This document shows positions 33,288 to 44,836 of a stretch of DNA of 64,000 bases, piece after piece (position 1 is the first letter of the stretch; each line of letters opens with the position of its first letter). The stretch is from the NCBI GenBank assembly GCA_028288725.1, contig JAQGIC010000057.1, positions 1 to 64,000 of the forward strand, in the 5' to 3' direction. Source of the DNA: Rhodospirillales bacterium (GTDB lineage Bacteria; Pseudomonadota; Alphaproteobacteria; ATCC43930; CGMCC-115725). The position numbers and the translations under genes are program-made. The notes below the pieces were generated by a model. The model was given only the letters and a program-made list of their open reading frames with translations, ran no database searches and was not told the DNA's origin.

Positions 33288-34082
33288 CTACCCGTTCAAA
33301 CACGTCAGTCCGCCATCGACCGCCAGACAGACGCCGGTGATATAGGCCGCCTCGTCCGACGCCAGGAACAGCGCGGCCCTGGCCACGTCCCAGGCATCGC
33401 CCATGCGCCCCATCGGGCTTTTGGCGTCGCGGGCCGCCATCATCTGGGCGGTGTCGGCATAGGCGCCGGCGATCTGCCGGTGAATCAGCGGCGTGTTCAT
33501 CAGGCCGGGCATGATGGCATTCACCCGGATGTTGTCCTTGGCATAGCGCACGGCCAGCGCGCGGGTCAGATGGTTCAACCCGGCCTTGGACGCGGAATAG
33601 GAAAAATACCGGTAGTCGTTGATATGGACGGCGGCGGTCGACGAGATATTGACGACGGCGCCGCCGCCCTGGCGCAGCATGGCAGGCACGACGGCCTTCG
33701 TGGCGAGCATGGCGCCGGTCAGGTTGATGTCCATCACCCGCTGCCAGCGCTCCTTGGTGATATCCTCCAGCTCGCCGATATCGGTAATGCCGACATTGTT
33801 GTGCAGCACGTCGATCCGGCCGAAGCGCGCCAGCGTGTCGGCGACGATGTGCTGGATCTGGTCCTCGTCGGTGACGTCGCCGGCGAACGCGATCGCCGTG
33901 CCGCCCTCGGCCGCGACGATGCCGGCGGTTTCCCGGGCCGCGTCCAGGCGCACATCGACCGCGACCAGCGTGGCGCCTTCGCGGGCATAGAGCACGGCCG
34001 CGGCCTTGCCGTTGCCCCAGCCCGGTCCGGACGAGCCCGCACCCAGCACCAGGGCGACCTTGTCCCGCATCCTGTCGGCCAT
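33288..34082 (-). CDS. Short-chain dehydrogenase/reductase (SDR)
   Basis: A 264-residue NAD(P)-dependent classical SDR. The dinucleotide-binding segment is LVLGAGSSGPGWGNGKA (about residues 12-28), a longer form of TGxxxGxG. HNNVGI provides the NNAG motif, NISST the catalytic Ser, and YSASKAG (about 158-164) the catalytic Tyr and Lys. The C-terminal VCLAVDGGLT is typical. The start ATG 34082 lies 12 bp after the TPP-enzyme stop, so it is the last gene of the leftward operon. A 2-hydroxyacid, alcohol or acetoin-like substrate is likely given its partners (inference). Confidence 0.9.
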   Translation of the reverse strand: MADRMRDKVALVLGAGSSGPGWGNGKAAAVLYAREGATLVAVDVRLDAARETAGIVAAEGGTAIAFAGDVTDEDQIQHIVADTLARFGRIDVLHNNVGITDIGELEDITKERWQRVMDINLTGAMLATKAVVPAMLRQGGGAVVNISSTAAVHINDYRYFSYSASKAGLNHLTRALAVRYAKDNIRVNAIMPGLMNTPLIHRQIAGAYADTAQMMAARDAKSPMGRMGDAWDVARAALFLASDEAAYITGVCLAVDGGLTCLNG

Positions 34083-34093
34083 GGTTTTCTCCC

Positions 34094-35821
34094 TCAAGCG
34101 ATCCGGTCGCCCTTCTTCACCGTGGCGGTGCGATTATCCACGCCGGGCAGCATCTTCGCCGGGTCGCGCGTCACGACCAGATCGATCACCGTCGGGCCCT
34201 GGCCGGCAAAGCCCGCCTCCAGTGCCGCTCCCAACGCGCCCGGCTGCTCGACGCGTATTCCGCGCACGCCCATGGCTTCCGCGACCTTGGCATAGTTGGT
34301 CTCCGCCAGGTCCGAGGCATGATAGGCGCCCGTGCCGTACATCAGATGCTGCAGCGCCTTGACGTAGCCGGACGCCGCGTTGTTGACGACGACGATGGTG
34401 AAGCTCAAGCCCAGCCGCCGCGCGGTTTCCATCTCGCCCAGCATCATGTTGAAGCCGCCGTCGCCGGTCAGGCTGACGACCGGCCGGCCGGGGGCGGCCA
34501 GCGCCGCACCGATGGCGCCGGGCAAGCCATAGCCGATCGACGCGAAGCCCCGGTCCGGGACGAAGCCGCGGCCGGGCCGCTTGGTGTCGAACAGCAGCCC
34601 GCCCCAATGGGCGGCGAAGCCGCCGTCGGCGACCAGGATGCCGTCGGCCGGCAGACGCTGGTTGAGCTCGCCCATCAGCCGCGCCATGGAGACCGGCACT
34701 TCCTCGGACGTGTATTTGTCGACCACGCCGGCCTTCCAGGCCGCCATGCGGCGGGCGACCTCGGCGGCATAGGGGATCTGCCGCTGACCGATTGCCGCTG
34801 CCTGGGGCGCCAGAATCCGATGAAGCTCCGCGATCGTCTCGCGCACGTCGCCCCACAGCGCCAGCTCGGGCTCGGTCGTGCGGCCGAACTCTTCGGGCAG
34901 CAGATCCAGGTGCATGATGCGCGCACCCTTGGGCGGCACCGTGAAGCGCTTGGTCGCGATCTCGCCCAGCTTGCAGCCGACCACGAAAACCAGGTCGGCC
35001 GCGGCGATCAGGTCGTTGGCGATGCGGTCGTAGCGTCCGAACAGGCCCGCGCTCAGCGGATCGATGCAGGCGATGGCGCCCTTGCCGGTCATGGTATGGG
35101 CGACCGGCAGATTGAGCGCCTGCGCGAAGGCGGCGAGCGTGTCCGCCGCCTGGCTCAGATGCACGCCGCCGCCGGCCAGCAGGATCGGTCGCTCCGCCGC
35201 GGCCAGCAGGGCCGCCGCCCGTTCGGTCGAGGCGGCGTCGGGCCGGCAGCGGATCGCCGGGATCGTCTCGGTCGCCGGATCGCCGGCGAATTCACCGGGC
35301 TCGAAGCCATGGGTAGCGTGGCAGATATCCTCCGGCACGTCGACCACGACGGGACCGGGGCGGCCGGAGGTCGCGACCCGGAAAGCGCGGCGCATCAGTT
35401 CCGGAATCCGCTCGATCTGTTCGATCCGGATCACTTCCTTGCAGGCCGGACGCAGGATGTCGATCTGGCGCGATTCCTGGGTCATGTTCTTCCAGGAATG
35501 GCCGCGATGGCTATCGCCGACCAGCACCACCATCGGCGTGCCGGCATTGAGCGCCTCGACCAGGCCGGTCACCAGGTTGGTGGCGCCGGGGCCGAGCGTC
35601 GCATCGGCCAACCCGACCCGGCCGGTGATCTTGGCATAGGCGTCGGCGGCGAACACGGCCGCGCGCTCGTCGTTGATCAGATGATGGTCGACGTTCAGCC
35701 GGCGGGCGGCATCGTAGAACGGCAGCAGCTGAAACCCGCCCATGCCGAACATCGGCCCGCCGTGGAACGCCTGGAACATCCGGGCGAGCGCTTCGCCGCC
35801 GGTCATTTCATTTACTGGCAT
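34094..35821 (-). CDS. Thiamine diphosphate-dependent enzyme (acetolactate synthase-like fold)
   Basis: A 575-residue TPP enzyme with the three-domain layout of acetolactate synthase, benzoylformate decarboxylase and relatives. The N-terminal domain has the catalytic Glu in INDERAAVFAADAYAK (about residues 49-64). The central domain shows PILLAGGGVHLS. The C-terminal TPP/Mg motif is TGDGGFNMMLGEMET ... VVVNNAASGYVKAL (about 454-489). No FAD-specific cue is obvious, and it is not close enough to any named enzyme to assign a substrate. The ATG directly abuts the E1 beta stop codon (TAGATG), so both are coupled. Confidence 0.9.
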   Translation of the reverse strand: MPVNEMTGGEALARMFQAFHGGPMFGMGGFQLLPFYDAARRLNVDHHLINDERAAVFAADAYAKITGRVGLADATLGPGATNLVTGLVEALNAGTPMVVLVGDSHRGHSWKNMTQESRQIDILRPACKEVIRIEQIERIPELMRRAFRVATSGRPGPVVVDVPEDICHATHGFEPGEFAGDPATETIPAIRCRPDAASTERAAALLAAAERPILLAGGGVHLSQAADTLAAFAQALNLPVAHTMTGKGAIACIDPLSAGLFGRYDRIANDLIAAADLVFVVGCKLGEIATKRFTVPPKGARIMHLDLLPEEFGRTTEPELALWGDVRETIAELHRILAPQAAAIGQRQIPYAAEVARRMAAWKAGVVDKYTSEEVPVSMARLMGELNQRLPADGILVADGGFAAHWGGLLFDTKRPGRGFVPDRGFASIGYGLPGAIGAALAAPGRPVVSLTGDGGFNMMLGEMETARRLGLSFTIVVVNNAASGYVKALQHLMYGTGAYHASDLAETNYAKVAEAMGVRGIRVEQPGALGAALEAGFAGQGPTVIDLVVTRDPAKMLPGVDNRTATVKKGDRIA

Positions 35822-36799
35822 CTAGTGCCTCCCCATCATGGCACAGGCGGCATCGGCGATGGCCGATGCGCTGACGCGCACGGCGTTTTCGACCGGTGGC
35901 GCATAGGCGATCAGCGTGCGGGGCGCGCCCAGGCGCCGGACCGGCGCCTTCAGCCGCGGCCCCAGCTGTTCGGCGACGGTGGCGGCGACCTCGGCGCCGA
36001 AGCCCGCGACCGCGACCGCTTCATGGGTCACCAGCAAGCGCCCGGTCTTCGCCACGCTGGCCAACACGCGCGTCTTGTCCCAGGGCCAGAGCGTGCGCAG
36101 GTCGATCAGCTCGACCTCGATGCCCTGGGCGGCCAGCGCGCCCGCCGCCTCGGCCGCGACATGGACCTGGGCCGACCAGGACACGATGGTCAGGTCCCGG
36201 CCCGGCCGCACGATGCGCGCCTCGCCGAACGGCACCAGATGGTCGCCGTCCGGCACGTCGCCGGCGAGGCCCCACAGGTTCTTATGCTCCATGAACACGA
36301 CGGGATCGTCGGACCGGATGGCAGTCTTCAGCAGGCCCTTAGTGTCGGCCGGGGTCGAGGGGCAGACCACGACCAGGCCCGGCACATGGGCGTACCAGGC
36401 CTCGAGCGACTGGGAATGTTGGGCGGCGGACGAGCGCCACATGCCGATCGGCTCGCGCACCACCAGGGGCACGCGGGTCTGGCCGCCGAACATGAAGCGC
36501 GCCTTGGCCGCCTGGTTGACCAGCTCGTCCATGGCGCAGAGCGCGAAATCGGAAAAGCGCATCTCGACCACGGGGCGCGTGCCCATCATCGCGGCGCCGA
36601 CCGCGGCGCCCAGGATGGCCGCCTCCGAAATGGGCGCGTCGGAAATGCGTTCGGGCCCGAATTCCTCGACCAGGCCCTTGTACTGGCCGAACACGCCGCC
36701 GCGGCCCAGATCCTCGCCGACGGCCCAGACCAGCGGGTCGCGGCGCATTTCCTCGGCCAGCGCATCGCGGCCGGCCTCGAGATAGCTGACGATCGCCAT
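35822..36799 (-). CDS. 2-Oxoacid/acetoin dehydrogenase E1 component, beta subunit
   Basis: A 325-residue transketolase-like protein of the pyruvate/acetoin/branched-chain 2-oxoacid dehydrogenase E1 beta family. Family segments are AVGEDLGRGGVFGQYKGL (about residues 26-43), DAPISEAAILGAAVGAAM with the conserved Glu, HSQSLEAWYAHVPGL (about 128-142) and VELIDLRTLWPWD. The start at 36799 overlaps the E1 alpha stop by one base (TGATG). No E2 or E3 gene is in the neighbourhood, which is unusual. Confidence 0.93.
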   Translation of the reverse strand: MAIVSYLEAGRDALAEEMRRDPLVWAVGEDLGRGGVFGQYKGLVEEFGPERISDAPISEAAILGAAVGAAMMGTRPVVEMRFSDFALCAMDELVNQAAKARFMFGGQTRVPLVVREPIGMWRSSAAQHSQSLEAWYAHVPGLVVVCPSTPADTKGLLKTAIRSDDPVVFMEHKNLWGLAGDVPDGDHLVPFGEARIVRPGRDLTIVSWSAQVHVAAEAAGALAAQGIEVELIDLRTLWPWDKTRVLASVAKTGRLLVTHEAVAVAGFGAEVAATVAEQLGPRLKAPVRRLGAPRTLIAYAPPVENAVRVSASAIADAACAMMGRH

Positions 36800-37794
36800 C
36801 AGAACGCCTCCACGCGGGGATCGCCCGCATCCTGCACGTCGGTGAAGGCCTCGCCCGCCGACGGAAACGGCGCAGCGCATGCCGCACGATAGGCGGCCCG
36901 CATCTCGGCCACCGCGTCGTCGGCATCGGCCGATAGCGCCTCGGCCGGAACGCCGGCGTCGCGCAACAGCTCGGCGGCCCGCCCGATCGGCTCCTCCTGC
37001 CGCCGTGCCGCGACCTCGTCGGCCGGGCGATAGGCGGCGGGGTCGGCGCCGGTATGGCCGGTTAGGCGATAAGTGTGGGCATGGAGAAAGCGCGGACCGC
37101 CGCCGGCACGAATGGCGGCGGTCAGCTCGGCCGTGGCCGTATCGACCGCCAGCACGTCGTTGCCGTCGACCTCGACCGCGGGAATCCCGAACGAGCGGGC
37201 GCGCACGCTGGCGCCGCCGCCGGCGGTCATGGTCCGGGACCGGGTCGTCGCGGCGAAGCCATTGTCCTCGCACACGAACAACACCGGCAGATGGAACACG
37301 GCGGCCCAGTTCAGCCCTTCGAGGAAGGGTCCCCGATTGATGGCGCCGTCGCCGAAGATGCAGCAGACCAGATGCGGTTCGCGCTTCAGCCTGATGGCAT
37401 GGGCCGCCCCGGCCGCGATCACGATATTGGCGGCGACCACGCCGTTGGCGCCCAGCATGCCGACCGAGAAATCGGCGATATGCATCGAGCCGCCCTTGCC
37501 GCCGCAATTGCCGCCCTCGCGCCCCAACAGTTCGCGCATCATCGCCCCGCTGTCGGCGCCCTTGCCCAGGGTATGGCCATGGCCGCGATGGGTCGACAGC
37601 AGGACGTCCTGCCGCGTCAGATGGGATGTCACGCCGGCCGCGACGGCCTCCTGGCCGATCGACGGATGGATCGCGCCCAGCACGACCTTGTCGTCCAGGC
37701 CCCGCAACGCCTGTTCCTCGAACGCGCGGATGCGCCACATCAGCCGATGATGGGTGCGCAGCCGGTCGCGATCCAGATTGCTGCCTGCTGTCAT
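36799..37794 (-). CDS. 2-Oxoacid/acetoin dehydrogenase E1 component, alpha subunit
   Basis: A 331-residue TPP-binding E1 alpha subunit. Landmarks are HPSIGQEAVAAGV, STHRGHGHTLGKG (about residues 65-77), GGKGGSMHIAD and the TPP motif FGDGAINRGPFLEGLNWAA (about 143-161) ending in CEDNGFA, with the phospho-loop region HTYRLTGHTGADPAAYRP. ATG 37794 (MTAGSNLDRDRLR) fits the family start; its first bases overlap the IclR stop (ATGA). It precedes E1 beta in the same operon. Confidence 0.93.
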   Translation of the reverse strand: MTAGSNLDRDRLRTHHRLMWRIRAFEEQALRGLDDKVVLGAIHPSIGQEAVAAGVTSHLTRQDVLLSTHRGHGHTLGKGADSGAMMRELLGREGGNCGGKGGSMHIADFSVGMLGANGVVAANIVIAAGAAHAIRLKREPHLVCCIFGDGAINRGPFLEGLNWAAVFHLPVLFVCEDNGFAATTRSRTMTAGGGASVRARSFGIPAVEVDGNDVLAVDTATAELTAAIRAGGGPRFLHAHTYRLTGHTGADPAAYRPADEVAARRQEEPIGRAAELLRDAGVPAEALSADADDAVAEMRAAYRAACAAPFPSAGEAFTDVQDAGDPRVEAF

Positions 37795-38582
37795 CGGATG
37801 GTTCCTCCTCGGATCGCCGCCATCGGCGGCGGCAGGCGGCGTTCGAGATCGGCCGCCTCGCTTTTCAGCTGTTCGACCAGGCCGCCCAGCCGATCCGGCC
37901 CCATCCGATCGCGGATCGCGGCCAGGCTGAGCGCGAACAGCGGCCGTCCGTCGGCATCGCACACCGGCACGGCGATGGCGTTCATCGCCGGCACGATCAG
38001 CCCGTCGTTGAAGGCATAGCCCTCGACCCGCGTCCGCGCGACCAGCCGCATCAGCGCCTCGGCGGTGAAGCCGCTGAAATCCTTCAGCCAGGCCGCGTTG
38101 CGCGCGAGCACCTGGGCGATCTCGGCATCGGGCAAGGCGGCCAGCAGGGCCAGACTGCCGGCACCGACGCCGAGCGGCCGGCGGTCGCCGATATCGAGCG
38201 TCAGGGTGCGGATGGGGAAATGGCCGATGGCCCGGCCGATGCAGATCGCGGCCAGCCCTTCGCGGACCGAGGCGAACACCGTGTCGCCGGTCGCTTGCGC
38301 CAGGCGCGCGAGCGCGCCGTCGGCCATCGCGGCCACGTCCTGCTGCAGGGCGGCCCGGCCGAGCGTGGCGACGACGGCGCCCAGGCGATAATGCTTGCTG
38401 CGCAGGTCCTGGAAAGCGAAGCCGACCTCGGCGAGCGCGGTCAGCAGCCGGTGGGTGGTGGCCGGGCCGAAGCCGGTCGCCCGCGCGGCCTCGCTCAGGC
38501 TGACGCCGTCGGCGCCATGGCCCGCCAGCACGCGCAGCAGGGCGGCGATCCGATCGACGGTCTTGACGGCCGTTTCCGGCAT
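37791..38582 (-). CDS. IclR-family transcriptional regulator
   Basis: A 263-residue IclR regulator. The N-terminal winged helix (about residues 7-65) shows TVDRIAALLRVLAG and SLSEAARATGFGPATTHRLLTAL. The C-terminal effector-binding domain (about 80-250) shows GVGAGSLALLAAL and the late FALSLAAIRDRM. It is the first gene of the leftward TPP operon, overlapping E1 alpha by 4 bp, and divergent from the TGSHGG-repeat gene 111 bp away. It therefore probably controls both directions. Confidence 0.93.
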   Translation of the reverse strand: MPETAVKTVDRIAALLRVLAGHGADGVSLSEAARATGFGPATTHRLLTALAEVGFAFQDLRSKHYRLGAVVATLGRAALQQDVAAMADGALARLAQATGDTVFASVREGLAAICIGRAIGHFPIRTLTLDIGDRRPLGVGAGSLALLAALPDAEIAQVLARNAAWLKDFSGFTAEALMRLVARTRVEGYAFNDGLIVPAMNAIAVPVCDADGRPLFALSLAAIRDRMGPDRLGGLVEQLKSEAADLERRLPPPMAAIRGGTIR

Positions 38583-38693
38583 CCGACGGCGTCCTCCCTG
38601 GGATGGTTCATGGGTCTGCTCGCCCATCTTTCCAAATCCGGCTAATATCTACGCGCGATTTCGGAAAGATCGTCAATGCCCGGGAGAAGGCTC

Positions 38694-39497
38694 ATGGTCG
38701 AACTCTTTATCGCACCGACGGTCACCAAGCTCGGCCCCGACGCGGTCGGCGCGGTGCTGGTGACCGGCTCCCATGGGGGGCTCTATCCCGGCCGCCTCGC
38801 GGTCGGCGCGGGCGTCCGCTCGGCGATCTTCCATGATGCGGGCATCGGTCGGGACGAGGCAGGCGTGGCTTCGCTGGCATTGCTCGACGGGTTCGGCATT
38901 GCCGCCGCCGCCGTGGCCCATGACAGCGCCCGGATCGGCGATACGGCGGATATGCTGGCGCGCGGCCGGATCAGCCGGGCGAATGCCGCGGCCAGGGCGC
39001 TGGGCGTCACGCCCGGAATGGCCTGCGCCCTGGCCGCGGACCGGCTGAAGCAGGCGGACCATCACCCAGCCGGGCTGCCCAAGGGCGACGAGTTGCGCCT
39101 GGTCCTGCCGCGCCCGCGCCGTCCGATCGTGCTGGTGGATTCCGCCGCCATGGTCGATCCCGCGGCGGATATCGGCGCGATTGTCGTCACCGGCTCCCAT
39201 GGCGGCTTGGTCGGCGGTGTGGCGGCTATGGCGCTCAGGGTCGACGGTTTCGCCGGCGTGTTCAATGACGCCGGCATCGGCATCGACCAGGCCGGCCTCG
39301 GCCGCTTGGCCGCGCTGGACGCCCGCGGCATCGCCGGGCTCACCGTCGCAGCGACCTCGGCCCGGATCGGCGAGGCGCGGTCGACATTCGAAGACGGCAT
39401 TATCTCGTGCGTCAACCGGACCGCCGATGCGCTGGGCGCGATGGCGGGAACGCCGCTCAGAACCCTGCTGGAGCGCTGGGCGGCCGGAGTGGCGTAA
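38694..39497 (+). CDS. Unrecognised protein with two tandem TGSHGG/DAGIG repeats
   Basis: A 267-residue cytoplasmic-looking protein that I do not recognise with certainty. It consists of two homologous units. Unit 1 has VTGSHGG (residues 23-29), FHDAGIG (46-52), ARIGDT and an ISRAN-like segment. Unit 2 repeats this as VTGSHGG (165-171), FNDAGIG, ARIGEA and ISCVN. Between the aligned motifs the spacing is nearly the same in both halves, so this is an internal duplication. The glycine/histidine/aspartate-rich motifs look like a ligand- or metal-binding site, but no function can be given. GGGAGAAGG precedes the ATG. It is divergent from the IclR-TPP operon, which makes a metabolic link likely. 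Confidence 0.8.
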   Translation: MVELFIAPTVTKLGPDAVGAVLVTGSHGGLYPGRLAVGAGVRSAIFHDAGIGRDEAGVASLALLDGFGIAAAAVAHDSARIGDTADMLARGRISRANAAARALGVTPGMACALAADRLKQADHHPAGLPKGDELRLVLPRPRRPIVLVDSAAMVDPAADIGAIVVTGSHGGLVGGVAAMALRVDGFAGVFNDAGIGIDQAGLGRLAALDARGIAGLTVAATSARIGEARSTFEDGIISCVNRTADALGAMAGTPLRTLLERWAAGVA

Positions 39498-39655: not shown

Positions 39656-41224
39656 TCAGCCGGTGGGCAGGAACTGATAGAGCCAGGTCTCGGTCATCGC
39701 CGCCCCTTCATGGCGCAGATAGCAGCGCAGATCGTGCGGCTCCACGTCCTCGATGGCGAGGTCGAAGCTCACGCGCCAGTTCTTGGTGCCGACGACCGGC
39801 CATGCCACGGGATTGACGACCCTGCCGCGCGACGCGGTCACCACCGGCTCGACCCCGTCGAGCCGGGTCAGCGCCTCCAGGGGGCCGCCCAGAAAATCCA
39901 CGACGAATTTCTTGGTGCCGGGCGGACGCGGCTTGCCCGCGACGCCGCCGATGCCGATCCGCGTCGCCACGACCCGCGCCGCCTCCGGCGGATGCGGCTC
40001 GTCCGCCAGCCAATATTGATTGTAGGCGAAGCGCAGTTCGGCGCCCGGCTTGACCGGGCCCTTCGGCACCCAGAAGGCGGTGATATTGTCGATCGCGTCC
40101 TCGTTGGTCGGGACCTCGACCAGCTGGACCGAACCCTCGCCCCAGGGCGTCAGCGGCTCGATCCAGACGCTCGGGCGTCGGCCATAGAAGGCGATATCGT
40201 CCTGGTAGTGGGCGAAGTCGCGCTCGCGCTGCAGCAGGCCGAATCCCTGCGGATCCTTGTCCAGGAAGGCGCTGATCTTGAGCGTGGCCGGGTCGTTCAG
40301 CGGCCGCCAGATGCGCTCGCCGGCCCCGGTCGCCAGCGCCAGCCCGTCGCTGTCATGGATCTCTGGCCGCCAATCGATGCCCTGGGCGCGATTGTGCTTG
40401 CCGTACCAGAACATGCTGGTGAGCGGCGCCACGCCCAGACGCTGGATCTCCTTGCGGACGAACAGCACGGTCTCGATCTTCAGCACCGGCTCCCGGTCGC
40501 TCGACAGCGAGATCCGGTAGGCGCCGGAGAGGCTGGGGCCATCGAGCAGCGCGTGGATCACCGTATCGCCGCCGGGGGCGGCGGGCTCGGCGATCCAGAA
40601 GCCGGTGAAGCGCGGGAATTCCTCGCGGCCGGTCGCCGCATTGACCGCGATGCCGCGCGCCGACAGGCCATATTGGTCCAGCGCGCCGGCGCTGCGGAAA
40701 TAGCTGGCGCCCATGAACGACAGGAAGTCGGTCCGGGCGCCCGGATGCATCAGGCGGAACCCGGCAAAGCCGATATCGTCGGGCAGCTTGCGGGCGAACT
40801 CGGCACTGCCGAAATCGAACAGGGACGGGCTGTACTGCACCTCGCGCGCGGTCGCGCCGGTGACCTGATAGATCCGCACGGGCGCTTTGGAAAACTTGCC
40901 CGGATGATAGAGCTGTGCCGGAAACGGCGCGCCCGATCCGGCCGGCCACAGCTGACGTTCCGACCTGAAATGGATCTGCTGGGCGGCGTCGGCGTCGATC
41001 CTGTCCAGGATTTCGGCATGGCGGATCACCGGCGGCTGATACGGATGGCCGGCGAGCGCCTTAGCCTGGGCGATCAGATGCTCGAAATCGAACGGCTGGC
41101 TCGGGCCCAGCTTGACCGCGGCGTCCGCGGCAAGGGCGGCGCTGAACGGCATGGCGGCGAGGGTCGGGCCGAAGGCCGCCGCCGCGATACCGGCGAGCGC
41201 ACGGCGCCGGGTCAGGAAATCCAT
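39656..41224 (-). CDS. opgD: Periplasmic glucan biosynthesis protein OpgD/OpgG family (Tat signal)
   Basis: A 522-residue periplasmic protein of the OpgG/OpgD family, which shapes the beta-1,2-glucan backbone of osmoregulated periplasmic glucans. The N-terminus has a Tat-type signal (TRRRALAGIAAAAFG ... ALAADA). Family segments include FRSERQLWP, YSPSLFDFGSAEF, GLSARGIAVNAA and EIHDSDGLAL, and GFGLLQRERDFAHYQD. Tat export is typical of OpgD in E. coli, although the paralogue upstream also has a Tat-like signal. ATG 41224 gives the shortest good signal. It is last of the opgG-opgH-opgD run; the distinction between D and G is by position and signal only. Confidence 0.88.
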   Translation of the reverse strand: MDFLTRRRALAGIAAAAFGPTLAAMPFSAALAADAAVKLGPSQPFDFEHLIAQAKALAGHPYQPPVIRHAEILDRIDADAAQQIHFRSERQLWPAGSGAPFPAQLYHPGKFSKAPVRIYQVTGATAREVQYSPSLFDFGSAEFARKLPDDIGFAGFRLMHPGARTDFLSFMGASYFRSAGALDQYGLSARGIAVNAATGREEFPRFTGFWIAEPAAPGGDTVIHALLDGPSLSGAYRISLSSDREPVLKIETVLFVRKEIQRLGVAPLTSMFWYGKHNRAQGIDWRPEIHDSDGLALATGAGERIWRPLNDPATLKISAFLDKDPQGFGLLQRERDFAHYQDDIAFYGRRPSVWIEPLTPWGEGSVQLVEVPTNEDAIDNITAFWVPKGPVKPGAELRFAYNQYWLADEPHPPEAARVVATRIGIGGVAGKPRPPGTKKFVVDFLGGPLEALTRLDGVEPVVTASRGRVVNPVAWPVVGTKNWRVSFDLAIEDVEPHDLRCYLRHEGAAMTETWLYQFLPTG

Positions 41225-41334
41225 GGTGGTCTTTCGTGCGGAAGGCATAGGGAAACGAGGAAGGCGGCGCATGGGAGCGCCGCTGCCCGTCGGTTTCAAG
41301 TGAAAACTGCTTTCCGCGACGACAGAGCTTAACG

Positions 41335-43248
41335 TTAGGCGGGGTCCCGGACGCCTTCCGGGACCATCGGCTTCTTCTCCGGCCAGGGCGCATTGCCCAT
41401 GGCGACGCCGTTCTCCTCGGGCGCCAGGTTTTCCTCTTCCTGCTCGCCGGTCGGCGGTTCGCCGGCGTCGAGACCGCGATTGAGCGCGCGGCGCAGCCGG
41501 CGCAGCTCCGCCGGCGGCCGGGTTTCCTCCGGCGTCAGAAACAGGCCCCAATGCTTCAGCTTCAGGCCGAGGCTCGACCGGCTGGACAGTACCGACAGCG
41601 GGATCGCGACGGCCAGGCCGGCGAAGATCGGCGTCAGCCACCAGAAGAAGCCGGGCGCGATCCAGAACACCGAGCCGGCCCAGGCGAGGCCCAGCAGGGT
41701 CTGGCCGGCATGGCGCTTCAGGCCCTCGCGCCAGCTCAGGCCCCGGTCGTCGCGCGGCTGCGCTTCCCAGGCGACGCTGCGGCCGGAAAAGGCGGCGGTG
41801 ACGAACAGCGACTGGAACAGCATCATGATCGGCGCCAGCAGCGTCGAGAAGATCGTCTCGATCAGCACGCTCGGCAACAGGCCCATCAGGCCGCCATAGG
41901 GGCGGCGGCGGGCCGGGCTGAACACCACCAGCAGCAGACCCATGATCTTGGGCAGGAACAGCGCCACCAGCGTCATGACCAGCAGAAGGTTGATCTGGAA
42001 ATCGGTCGCGACCGGCCAGTTCGGGAACAGGTTGAAGCCGGGCTTGAAATAGACCGGTCCCTCGATCGCGCGCTGGACCGCGTCGGCGGTGCTGAGGCTC
42101 AGCAGCGCCAGCCAGAGGGGCGAGGTCAGATAGCTGGCGACGCCCATGCTCAGATGCAGCCGGCCCATCAGGCGCAGGCCCGGAAAGCTCAACAGCCGGC
42201 TATGTTGCATGTTGCCCTGGCACCAGCGGCGGTCGCGGGTCGCGTAGTCGATGACGTTCGCCGGCATTTCCTCGTAGGAGCCGGCCAGCTCCGGCACGAT
42301 CCAGACCTTGTAGCCTGCGCCGGTGATCATGGCCGCTTCGACGAAATCATGGCTGAGGATCTCGCCGCCCAGCGGCGCGCCGCCGGGCAGGACCGGCAAG
42401 CCGCAATGGCGGGCGAAGGCCGCGATCCGGATGATGGCGTTGTGACCGTAGTAATTGCCGGCGCCGCCGGTCCAGAAGGCCAGGCCCGAGGCCAGCACCG
42501 GACCGTAGAGGCGGCTGGAGAATTGCAGAATGCGCGCGAACGCGGTCTCGCGGTTCGCCGGCACCGGCAGGGTCTGGATGATGCCCGCGTCCGGATGGCC
42601 CTCCATCAGGCGGGCCAGCGACACGATGGTCTCGCCCGACATCACGCTGTCGGCATCGAGCACGACCATATGCGCATAGGCGTTGCCCCAGCGCTTCACG
42701 AAATCCTCGATGTTGCCGGCCTTGCGGCCGACGTTCTTCACCCGGCGGCGATAGAAGATCTTGATGCCGCCGGCGGCATGGCGGCGGCGCAGGCCCTCGA
42801 CCATGCGGCGCTCGGCCTGGCCATGAACGGCATCACGGGTGTCGGACAGCACGAAGAAATCGAAATGCGCACCCTCGCCGGTCCGCTCCAGGCCGACGAG
42901 CGTCGCCTCGAGCCCGGCCGACACGCGCAGCGGATCCTCGTTATAGATCGGCATGACCACGGCGGTGCGCACGCCCAGCGGATTGCTTGCGTCGACCGTC
43001 AGGCTGGCCGGATCGCCGCCGATCAGCCGGACCATGAAGCCGAACACGGCGGTCCAGAAGCTGATCGCCAGCCAGCCGAAGCTGATGGTGAACAGCGCCA
43101 CGCCGGCGATACCGATCAGGCCCAACCCGTGGGCAGCCATCACCTGGGACATCAGCGAGGCCGCGATCGCGGTGCTGCCGACGGTCAGAATCAGCAGGGC
43201 AACGCGGCGTAGGGCCAGGGTCAGCGTATGCGTCTTTTGGTCATGCAT
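41335..43248 (-). CDS. opgH: Glucan glucosyltransferase OpgH
   Basis: A 637-residue inner-membrane family 2 glycosyltransferase that polymerises UDP-glucose into the periplasmic glucan backbone. After two N-terminal spans, the catalytic region shows VVMPIYNEDP, FFVLSDTRD, MVVLDADSVMSG (DxD) and the QxxRW-like DRRWCQGNMQHSRLL. At least four more spans follow in the C-terminal half. The sequence is shorter than E. coli OpgH (about 850), lacking much of its cytoplasmic N-terminal domain. ATG 43248 (MHDQKTHTLTL) was chosen. It lies between the two OpgG/D paralogues. Confidence 0.94.
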   Translation of the reverse strand: MHDQKTHTLTLALRRVALLILTVGSTAIAASLMSQVMAAHGLGLIGIAGVALFTISFGWLAISFWTAVFGFMVRLIGGDPASLTVDASNPLGVRTAVVMPIYNEDPLRVSAGLEATLVGLERTGEGAHFDFFVLSDTRDAVHGQAERRMVEGLRRRHAAGGIKIFYRRRVKNVGRKAGNIEDFVKRWGNAYAHMVVLDADSVMSGETIVSLARLMEGHPDAGIIQTLPVPANRETAFARILQFSSRLYGPVLASGLAFWTGGAGNYYGHNAIIRIAAFARHCGLPVLPGGAPLGGEILSHDFVEAAMITGAGYKVWIVPELAGSYEEMPANVIDYATRDRRWCQGNMQHSRLLSFPGLRLMGRLHLSMGVASYLTSPLWLALLSLSTADAVQRAIEGPVYFKPGFNLFPNWPVATDFQINLLLVMTLVALFLPKIMGLLLVVFSPARRRPYGGLMGLLPSVLIETIFSTLLAPIMMLFQSLFVTAAFSGRSVAWEAQPRDDRGLSWREGLKRHAGQTLLGLAWAGSVFWIAPGFFWWLTPIFAGLAVAIPLSVLSSRSSLGLKLKHWGLFLTPEETRPPAELRRLRRALNRGLDAGEPPTGEQEEENLAPEENGVAMGNAPWPEKKPMVPEGVRDPA

Positions 43249-43291
43249 GGCAATGCCTCCGCACTGCACAACGGGCGAACCGGCGATTCAT

Positions 43292-44836
43292 TCACTCCGC
43301 CGTCCAACGAAATGTCCAGGTCTCGGACAGCGACTTGTCGCGCAATCTCAGGAAAGCGCGCATTTCCGTGTCCTTCTTCCCGTCGGGCGTGAAGGTGAAG
43401 GCGGCGCGCCAGACATCCGCGTCGAGCTTTTGACAAATGATATCATCAACCTTGCCCGTTGACACGGTCACGATCGCCTCGAGCGGAAGCCGGTCCGACA
43501 GCGAAGGAATGTCACCCCCGGTGAAGTCCAGCCAGAATCGCAGGGCAGCCTTGTGATCGTCCTTCGCGGCATCGACCGGCACGATCGGGCCGGTGCGGGT
43601 GCCGACGACACGGCCGCTGCCGGACGGCAGCGCCGTGGCGCCGGGCAGTGTCGTGGCGCGATAGGCGAACGCCGTCGGAACGCCGGCCTTCACCGGCGCC
43701 TCGGGCACCCAATAGGCCGCCATATTGTCGTTGATCTCGTCGTCGCTCGGGATCTCGACCAGTTCGACCGACCCCTTGCCCCAATCGCCCTCGGGCTCGA
43801 CCCACAGGCTGGGCCGGCGCTGATAATGCTCGATCACGTCTTCATACTGATGGAAATCGGTCTCGCGCTGCATCAGGCCGAAGCCCTTGGGGCTCTGGTC
43901 GGCGAAGGCACTGACCCGCAGGTTTTTCGGGTTCATCAGCGGGCGCCAGACCCATTCGCCGGTGCCGGTATGCAGCGCCAGGCCGTCGCTGTCGTGCACT
44001 TCGGGCCGAAGATCGGAGAAGGGCCGATTGCCGAGCTTGCCGTGCAGGAACATCGAGGTGAGCGGCGCCATGCCAAGCTTGCGGATGTCGAGCCGCGGAT
44101 AGAGCACCGCCTCGACCCGGATGCGCGTGTCCGTGTCGGGCGAGATCTCGAAGCGGTAGGCGCCGGTCGTGCTCTTGGTGTCGAGCAGCGCATAGACCAC
44201 CAGGGTAGTGGCATCCGGCGGGGGCCGTTCGATCCAGAATTTGGTGAAGGCGGGAAATTCCTCGCCTTGCGGGCTGGCCGTGTCGATCGCGAGGCCTCGG
44301 CCGGACAAGCCATATTGTTCGCCCCGGCCGATCAGCCGGAAGTACGAGGCGCCCTGGAACACGGCGAACTCGTCGAAATAATCCGGTCGATTGAGCGGGA
44401 AATGCAGGCGGAAGCCGGCGAAGCCCATGTTCTGGTCGAAATTGGTCGCGAACTTGTTCGGGCCGAAATCGAACATCGACGGGCTGTAGCCGATCTCGCG
44501 CACCTCGCCGCTCTCGATCGTGTGGATCGTGACCTTGCGATCATATTGGAAGCCGCGGTGGAACATCTGGATCTGGAACAGGCCGCCATCCCGCCACAGC
44601 GCCTGGTCCGCTCGGAAATCGATCATGCGGAAATGGGCATAATCCAGCGTCTTCAAGGAATCGGGCAGCGGCGGGCTGCTGCCGTCATAGGGCTGTTTGG
44701 CGAGCTGGACCGCCTGGTCCTTGACCGTATCGAAGGTAAAACCGGCGGACTCGGCGGCGAGCGCCGGCCTGGCCATGGCCCCGGCAGCAGCGCTGCCCGC
44801 CAGGGCGGCAATGAATTCACGACGTCTTATCTGCAT
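43292..44836 (-). CDS. opgG: Periplasmic glucan biosynthesis protein OpgG/MdoG family (Tat-like signal)
   Basis: A 514-residue exported protein of the OpgG/MdoG family. The signal peptide carries RRREFIAALAGSAAAG (residues 4-19) with a twin-arginine pattern and cleavage near ALAAES. Family segments are FRADQALWRDGG, YSPSMFDFGPNKF, GLSGRGLAIDTA, LHGKLGNRP and EVHDSDGLAL, followed by GFGLMQRETDFHQYED. It is the first gene of the leftward opg operon and 43 bp upstream of opgH. Two paralogues flanking opgH suggest one acts as OpgG and one as OpgD. Confidence 0.9.
   Translation of the reverse strand: MQIRRREFIAALAGSAAAGAMARPALAAESAGFTFDTVKDQAVQLAKQPYDGSSPPLPDSLKTLDYAHFRMIDFRADQALWRDGGLFQIQMFHRGFQYDRKVTIHTIESGEVREIGYSPSMFDFGPNKFATNFDQNMGFAGFRLHFPLNRPDYFDEFAVFQGASYFRLIGRGEQYGLSGRGLAIDTASPQGEEFPAFTKFWIERPPPDATTLVVYALLDTKSTTGAYRFEISPDTDTRIRVEAVLYPRLDIRKLGMAPLTSMFLHGKLGNRPFSDLRPEVHDSDGLALHTGTGEWVWRPLMNPKNLRVSAFADQSPKGFGLMQRETDFHQYEDVIEHYQRRPSLWVEPEGDWGKGSVELVEIPSDDEINDNMAAYWVPEAPVKAGVPTAFAYRATTLPGATALPSGSGRVVGTRTGPIVPVDAAKDDHKAALRFWLDFTGGDIPSLSDRLPLEAIVTVSTGKVDDIICQKLDADVWRAAFTFTPDGKKDTEMRAFLRLRDKSLSETWTFRWTAE

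Follow-up and report, generated by a model that had tools for sequence, protein, structure and literature searches.

TA1206, a DUF1805 protein of Thermoplasma acidophilum, is represented by the structure 1qw2, the title of which describes it as of unknown function. Clusters that combine a RuBisCO-like protein with an acid-sugar kinase are presumably tetronate and D-apionate pathways, and the E1 alpha and beta proteins form the TPP subunit pair of the pyruvate, branched-chain and acetoin dehydrogenases. The window analysed here (the whole stretch of 64,000 nucleotides from a Rhodospirillales bacterium) encodes a tandem protein for which TA1206 is the top structural match of both predicted models. 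It lies beside an E1 pair of the dehydrogenase type, and some of its relatives sit with the acid-sugar kinase and RuBisCO-like protein of clusters of the tetronate/D-apionate type (Table 1). Because it is inherited together with two thiamine-dependent enzymes, the tandem protein is probably a missing and so far unnamed enzyme of a bacterial pathway for the breakdown of small organic acids.

Table 1. Position and supporting evidence of the features at the divergent locus
Feature	Position	Strand	Evidence
SDR oxidoreductase	33288..34097	-	Pfam adh_short_C2 1.5e-64; NF005559 233.4 bits vs cut-off 215; best PDB match 5jc8 7.5e-67
ALS-like (acetolactate-synthase-like) TPP enzyme	34094..35821	-	three TPP_enzyme Pfam domains; best PDB sequence match BbmA, 8xod, 2.9e-67
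E1 beta, PDH type	35822..36799	-	Pfam Transket_pyr and Transketolase_C; NF006667 330.8 bits vs cut-off 321; ATG at 36799
E1 alpha, PDH type, GDG-x(2)-N present	36799..37794	-	Pfam E1_dh 5.9e-64; translation starts MTAGSN
IclR-family regulator	37791..38627	-	Pfam IclR_C 3.1e-19, HTH_IclR 1.8e-10; all 8 NCBIfam matches sub-cut-off
Divergent spacer, 66 nt, IclR to tandem gene	38628..38693		holds inverted repeat
Tandem protein, putatively DUF1805-like, 267 aa	38694..39497	+	ORF and translation; 48 aligned relatives; AlphaFold2 mean pLDDT 88.7
N-terminal repeat unit: SHG 26-28, DAGIG 48-52, SARIGD 78-83, S94, N97	38694..39065	+	24-halves alignment; folded alone, mean pLDDT 93.5
C-terminal repeat unit: SHG 168-170, DAGIG 192-196, SARIGE 222-227, S238, N241	39105..39494	+	self alignment and family alignments

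The sequence-only reading had placed an internally duplicated protein of a family it did not recognise at this position, and the reading frame is indeed present there. Its ATG is directly preceded by AGAAGG, and an in-frame ATG at 38676 would lengthen the protein by six residues. The duplication is borne out by a local self-alignment (BLOSUM62) of the two halves that scores 188 over about 93 columns, whereas 1000 shuffles give 42 +/- 7.4 and never exceed 76. The nearly equal motif spacing, put earlier at about 142 residues, measures 142 to 144 across the pairs S26-H27-G28/S168-H169-G170, D48-A-G/D192-A-G, S78-A-R80-I-G/S222-A-R224-I-G and S94-x-x-N97/S238-x-x-N241. An alignment of 24 halves from 12 proteins leaves S26, H27, G28, D48, A49, G50, G52, G57, L61, G82, G91, N97, A100 and G104 invariant, and among the 48 aligned relatives Ser26 is kept in all, with H27, D48, A49, G50, S94 and N97 at 90% or above. 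Both halves keep the conserved residue set over the 45 tandem members (S26 45/45, H27 41/45, H169 45/45, Arg80 39/45, Arg224 38/45, N97 and N241 44/45 each), so that neither half looks degenerate; no conserved cysteine or lysine is found among the positions counted in these members.

No Pfam or NCBIfam model reaches its cut-off on the 267-aa protein, and NCBIfam gives no match at E 1. The Pfam model DUF1805 (PF08827) matches residues 62-112 with 26.1 bits (E 1e-5), short of the gathering score of 29.5 bits, and this match stops before it takes in the SHG and DAG segments. When the host genome is searched in six frames with DUF1805, the window protein is the sole match at E 0.01, again below the cut-off, and 33 of the 48 relatives match the model at E 0.01 or better (best 3e-8). 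AlphaFold2 models were made of the whole protein from 12 alignment rows and of the N half alone from 24 rows. The best VIA match of the whole model is TA1206 over residues 126-263 (Z 8.2, rmsd 3.3, 95 of 102 residues aligned; next row Z 5.3), and that of the N-half model is also TA1206 (Z 8.0, rmsd 3.1, 80 aligned; next row Z 5.7), which places 1qw2 2.3 to 2.9 Z above the following row. Foldseek gives a non-significant E of 0.42 for the whole model against 1qw2, which is absent among the best 50 matches listed for the N half, and at the sequence level neither the protein nor its profile finds a PDB match better than E 0.048. The sub-threshold DUF1805 matches, together with the models that have TA1206 on top, lead us to read the protein as a remote relative made of two DUF1805-like domains that would lie outside the Pfam membership. 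That the predicted fold class and the duplication are right is very highly probable. No known family of unrelated function emerged from the libraries searched. The family looks new and uncharacterised, a tandem variant on a DUF1805-like fold that is unnamed in those libraries. A literature search at the level of result listings found no published role for the tandem protein or its family.

A second sub-threshold match concerns IMS (PF00817), the palm of Y-family polymerases, with 19.5 bits (E 1e-3) against a gathering score of 23.2; it covers residues 74-120 and profile positions 25-61 of 148, and 23 of the 48 relatives show it at E 0.01 (best 6.1e-9). The same residues (38913-39053) carry a motif, ANxxARxLGVxxGM, that resembles the Y-family palm in sequence, and in the predicted model 47 residues superpose on Dpo4-type chains at 2.4 to 2.7 A.

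Relatives with a single domain exist, for example at the loci L053, L054 and L085. A tree of 93 rows separates most N halves (38 of 45) from most C halves (39 of 45), and each of the two groups contains both alphaproteobacteria and haloarchaea. Their support (93/89 and 86/93) lies under the starred level and the tree is short on columns; the three single-domain forms branch outside both groups, at an unresolved fork. The tandem is best explained by an ancient duplication in which a single-domain protein, still found alone elsewhere, was fused to its copy, and the simplest story would start from a single-domain ancestor that probably acted as a dimer.

The sequence-only reading had the gene divergent from an IclR regulator at the head of a minus-strand operon with E1 alpha, E1 beta, a further TPP enzyme and an SDR, and Pfam agrees with this neighbourhood. 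The genes are tightly packed: E1 alpha begins within the stop of IclR and E1 beta within that of E1 alpha, and the TPP and SDR genes share 4 nt. The GDG-x(2)-N of E1 alpha is presumably the TPP motif. The ALS-like TPP enzyme stays below the NCBIfam cut-off in the best 25 of 54 rows, the top ones reaching 372.9 of 673 and 351.8 of 538 bits. Complexes of the pyruvate, branched-chain and acetoin type have E2 encoded with E1, whereas the window E1 has no linked E2: a search with PF00198 found none on the window's contig, and the host genome's three matches are on other contigs (C111, C80 and C33), where in each case a different E1 is no more than 3 kb away. On the far side of the tandem gene, two ORFs of the MdoG glucan biosynthesis type (661 and 514 aa; Pfam MdoG 1.1e-179 and 1.1e-188) at 39656-44836 on the minus strand lie on either side of an ORF that resembles family 2 glycosyltransferases, forming a glucan cluster in which MdoG is present twice.

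The spacer between the divergent genes carries the inverted repeat ATCTTTCCAAA (38626-38636) and TTCGGAAAGAT (38660-38670), with the core TTTCC-N29-GGAAA. The same core occurs in the same-genus locus L055, and a version with N28 in the distant L010; the repeat is absent from L057, the fourth divergent pair of IclR and tandem genes among the loci examined. Since 2000 slices of 66 nt taken at random from the window include 84 with a comparable repeat (about 4 percent), the spacer repeat is a candidate IclR operator in a suggestive sense only.

Co-occurrence makes the suspected pathway link a strong one. In a sample of 289 alphaproteobacterial genomes, searched at E 0.001 for the tandem protein, 1e-130 for the TPP enzyme and 1e-105 for E1 beta, the three are found in 32, 26 and 24 genomes respectively. 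All 24 genomes with E1 beta, from 15 families, also carry the tandem protein and the TPP enzyme, and 24 of the 26 with the TPP enzyme carry the tandem protein (the other two are G053 and G087); Fisher tests that ignore kinship give p 4.6e-26 and 1.5e-28. All three genes lie within 10 kb in 16 of the 24 genomes, the protein with the TPP enzyme only in three, with E1 only in three, and none are near each other in two (G080 and G195). For G131 and G197 the third gene shares the contig but lies 0.2 and 1.1 Mb off, which argues that the co-occurrence is not only physical. The other six unlinked cases are draft genomes in which the distant gene falls on a different contig, and a contig break may hide some linkage there. 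Eight of the 32 genomes hold the protein without E1 and the TPP enzyme at these thresholds, among them G091 (a weak hit), G011 (77% complete) and G200 (a single domain). Of eleven loci from GTDB genomes, nine have the TPP enzyme near the protein and six have both E1 subunits there.

The sequence-only reading had suggested a pathway shared by all these genes. The neighbourhood is conserved and the tie to E1 and the TPP enzyme stands, so that the tandem protein is, with high probability, a pathway partner of the two. The wider claim is narrowed: SDR and IclR accompany the protein less regularly than E1 and the TPP enzyme do (in 48 loci centred on one or other of the three genes, in part several per genome, the SDR cluster appears in 13, the IclR cluster in 12 and the DctM cluster in 8), the family reaches beyond one pathway, and the label catabolic derives from context. 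TRAP genes are present in some alphaproteobacterial clusters, and L010 holds IclR, the tandem protein, the TPP enzyme and TRAP.

Several arrangements were seen in passing. At L076 (G208) and L080 (G102) two E1 alpha/beta pairs in opposite directions flank a TPP gene beside the duplicated protein. At L092, L093 and L094, from G080 and G195 with the genes on separate contigs, TauD-type dioxygenases adjoin the E1 genes or lie two genes from the TPP gene. At L011 (9165-11576) an SDR gene stands on each side of a relative, with slight overlaps among the three predicted reading frames.

The link recurs independently in a second family, f181, where 24 of 120 genomes contain the domain, 13 contain E1 beta (E 1e-95) and eight contain both (Fisher p 5.7e-4), leaving five of the 13 E1 genomes without the domain. 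It occurs here as a side-by-side pair in three genomes (G916, G995 and G1013) and singly in 21, one of which (G955) has an additional broken fragment elsewhere. Five of 20 fetched loci (L109, L110, L113, L115 and L121) combine the single-domain form with E1 alpha, E1 beta, DctP and DctM. The leanest run, at L109, reads single-domain form, DctP, DctM, DctQ, E1 beta and E1 alpha, and its opposite-strand neighbours (MinC, a ParA-type ATPase, an acyl-CoA-synthetase-like protein and a deacetylase) are unrelated; the single-domain protein of this locus gives no DUF1805 match at E 0.001. The ALS-like TPP enzyme is found in none of the 24 f181 domain genomes at E 1e-130, the query and threshold that detect it in 26 of the 289 alphaproteobacteria. 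Since these loci join E1 to the single-domain form where no ALS-like TPP enzyme was found, the E1 link is independent of the window-type TPP enzyme. The f181 result is a local concentration, for the domain turned up in just 3 of the 274 genomes of a class-wide scan around G513; at the level of the phylum it was detected in 8 of 398, two of these hits being weak and partial. At two further f181 loci (L123 and L124) a tandem form lies beside an SDR 66 and 60 percent identical to that of the window, a TctC receptor and IclR, with no E1 in the genes shown.

Other relatives occur in different company. At L003, L007 and L086 they accompany a RuBisCO-like protein, an acid-sugar kinase (SBD_N/NBD_C) and a hydroxyisobutyrate-dehydrogenase-like or PGDH_C protein. 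Five haloarchaeal plasmids (L034, L036, L037, L040 and L041) show, by annotation, an SDR, VOC, the tandem protein, a RuBisCO-like protein and a four-carbon acid sugar kinase, the gene in the VOC position of L037 being annotated just as hypothetical. L105, in f181, contains a RuBisCO-like protein, a PGDH_C protein, TRAP genes and the single-domain form, and the link to RuBisCO-like clusters is thus seen for single-domain and tandem forms. At L041 (13560-16609) a pyruvate kinase and an enolase lie beside the cluster of RuBisCO-like protein, kinase and DUF1805-like protein, and this pathway may end in phosphoglycerate. On Rhodococcus and Rhizobium plasmids the relatives lie amid acyl-CoA genes in what looks like acyl-CoA degradation, in Aminobacter they are found with a CoA transferase, HMG-CoA lyase, RraA and dienelactone hydrolase, and the Ponticoccus and Methylovirgula relatives have other settings again. 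Each of the 12 plasmid relatives that carry an annotation is labelled hypothetical, and one further record has none.

Taken as a whole, these findings are best explained, if tentatively and at less than even chances, by a two-domain DUF1805-like enzyme that performs an isomerase-type step in a TRAP-fed E1/TPP carboxylate pathway. The secondary structure of the N-half model places the conserved residues at or right after the strands 21-27, 43-48, 70-75 and 92-96, the usual place of a pocket in an alpha/beta fold, and in each domain a pocket may therefore lie where the strands have their C-terminal ends. A proton transfer on a carboxylate is suggested by the conserved Arg, His and Asp together with Ser and Asn, by the lack of a conserved Cys or Lys among the positions counted and by neighbours that produce or split oxo acids; isomerase or epimerase chemistry is nevertheless doubtful in itself. 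It is proposed that Arg80/224 would hold the substrate carboxylate, that His27/169 and Asp48/192 would move protons, and that Ser26/168, Ser94/238 and Asn97/241 would hold an enediol(ate). A carbonyl or hydroxyl beside the acid could thereby be shifted or inverted, as by a 2-oxo to 3-oxo isomerase, an epimerase or a tautomerase, and the product would be handed to a TPP enzyme or, in other clusters, to the RuBisCO-like protein. The candidate substrates are hydroxy-oxo acids that the TRAP carriers may take up. On this view the tandem protein would seem to supply a step that a TRAP-fed pathway cannot do without. The pathway, probably under IclR control at the window, would handle a small hydroxy- or oxo-carboxylate, whose carbon chain would be broken by the E1 alpha/beta pair as a stand-alone TPP enzyme and, among alphaproteobacteria, also by the second, ALS-like TPP enzyme. 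The L086 cluster counts against an isomerase: it already has an SGL-type lactonase, a PGDH_C protein that we take to be a D-apionate oxidoisomerase, a kinase and the RuBisCO-like protein, and so leaves no obvious gap. The genomes in which the tandem protein, the TPP enzyme or the f181 E1 occurs without its partners, and the acyl-CoA settings of the Rhodococcus and Rhizobium plasmids, also speak against this explanation.

The next best reading, itself rather unlikely, is a hydro-lyase that removes water from a dihydroxy acid imported by TRAP; E1 would decarboxylate the resulting 2-oxo acid with E2 and E3 borrowed from housekeeping complexes. It ranks directly after the isomerase or epimerase because the leanest run, at L109, has no dehydrogenase gene besides E1 (a 617-aa ORF upstream is without a Pfam match). 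The combination of IclR, protein, TPP enzyme and TRAP at L010 is consistent with it, and a single dehydration would yield an E1 substrate. The dihydroxy-acid dehydratases known so far depend on Fe-S or Mg, but the counted positions of the tandem family include no conserved Cys, and a dehydration has no obvious place in clusters with a RuBisCO-like protein and a kinase.

Retention of the tandem protein in all 24 alphaproteobacterial E1 beta genomes, even where the genes lie apart, and the title of the closest fold, TA1206, would also suit a non-catalytic accessory or regulatory subunit that binds E1, the TPP enzymes or the RuBisCO-like protein. This is unlikely, however, as its partners (E1, RuBisCO-like protein, acyl-CoA genes) are unrelated and it occurs without E1 and the TPP enzyme, while its most conserved residues are polar or Gly at strand ends and have the usual look of a pocket. 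Regulation of the ALS-like TPP enzyme alone is weakened in particular by the f181 relatives that occur without it.

A carbon-carbon lyase of the RraA or HMG-aldolase type, with a swivelling beta/alpha domain, is improbable. The DAGIGRD segment and the strand-loop-helix pattern do loosely resemble RraA motifs, rraA lies two genes before the relative in two Aminobacter plasmids, and residues 126-220 of BSAP, presumably a PA domain of swivelling fold, form the second VIA row for the N half (Z 5.7). The DUF1805 protein nevertheless leads by the Z margin given above, and no RraA chain is among the VIA matches listed for the whole model and the N half, though a shared fold may exist even so. Least probable of all is a lactonase or ester hydrolase acting through Ser26/His27/Asp48, for although Ser26 is kept in all 48 relatives and His27 and Asp48 in at least 90%, Ser and His are sequence neighbours, unlike the usual triad. 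A lactonase role is further set back by the SGL-type lactonase already at L086.

If the isomerase-type reading is extended to all settings, the relatives would make up a one- or two-domain family, so far unrecognised, in which one conserved proton-shuffling step on hydroxy-oxo acids interchangeably feeds three unrelated systems for carbon-carbon cleavage: stand-alone E1, ALS-like TPP enzymes and RuBisCO-like proteins. This is conjectural and not to be thought likely, and would, if true, hint at a reaction for DUF1805. The tight co-inheritance ties an unnamed family to a defined set of enzymes, so that its function is directly testable, and the isomerase-type pathway would define an uncharacterised carboxylate route with two TPP enzymes and no linked E2, besides giving a functional lead for the DUF1805 fold. 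Compared with the tetronate/D-apionate clusters, the window operon has neither the kinase nor the RuBisCO-like protein, and compared with TA1206, which is one domain of 102 residues, the window protein consists of two domains in 267 aa.
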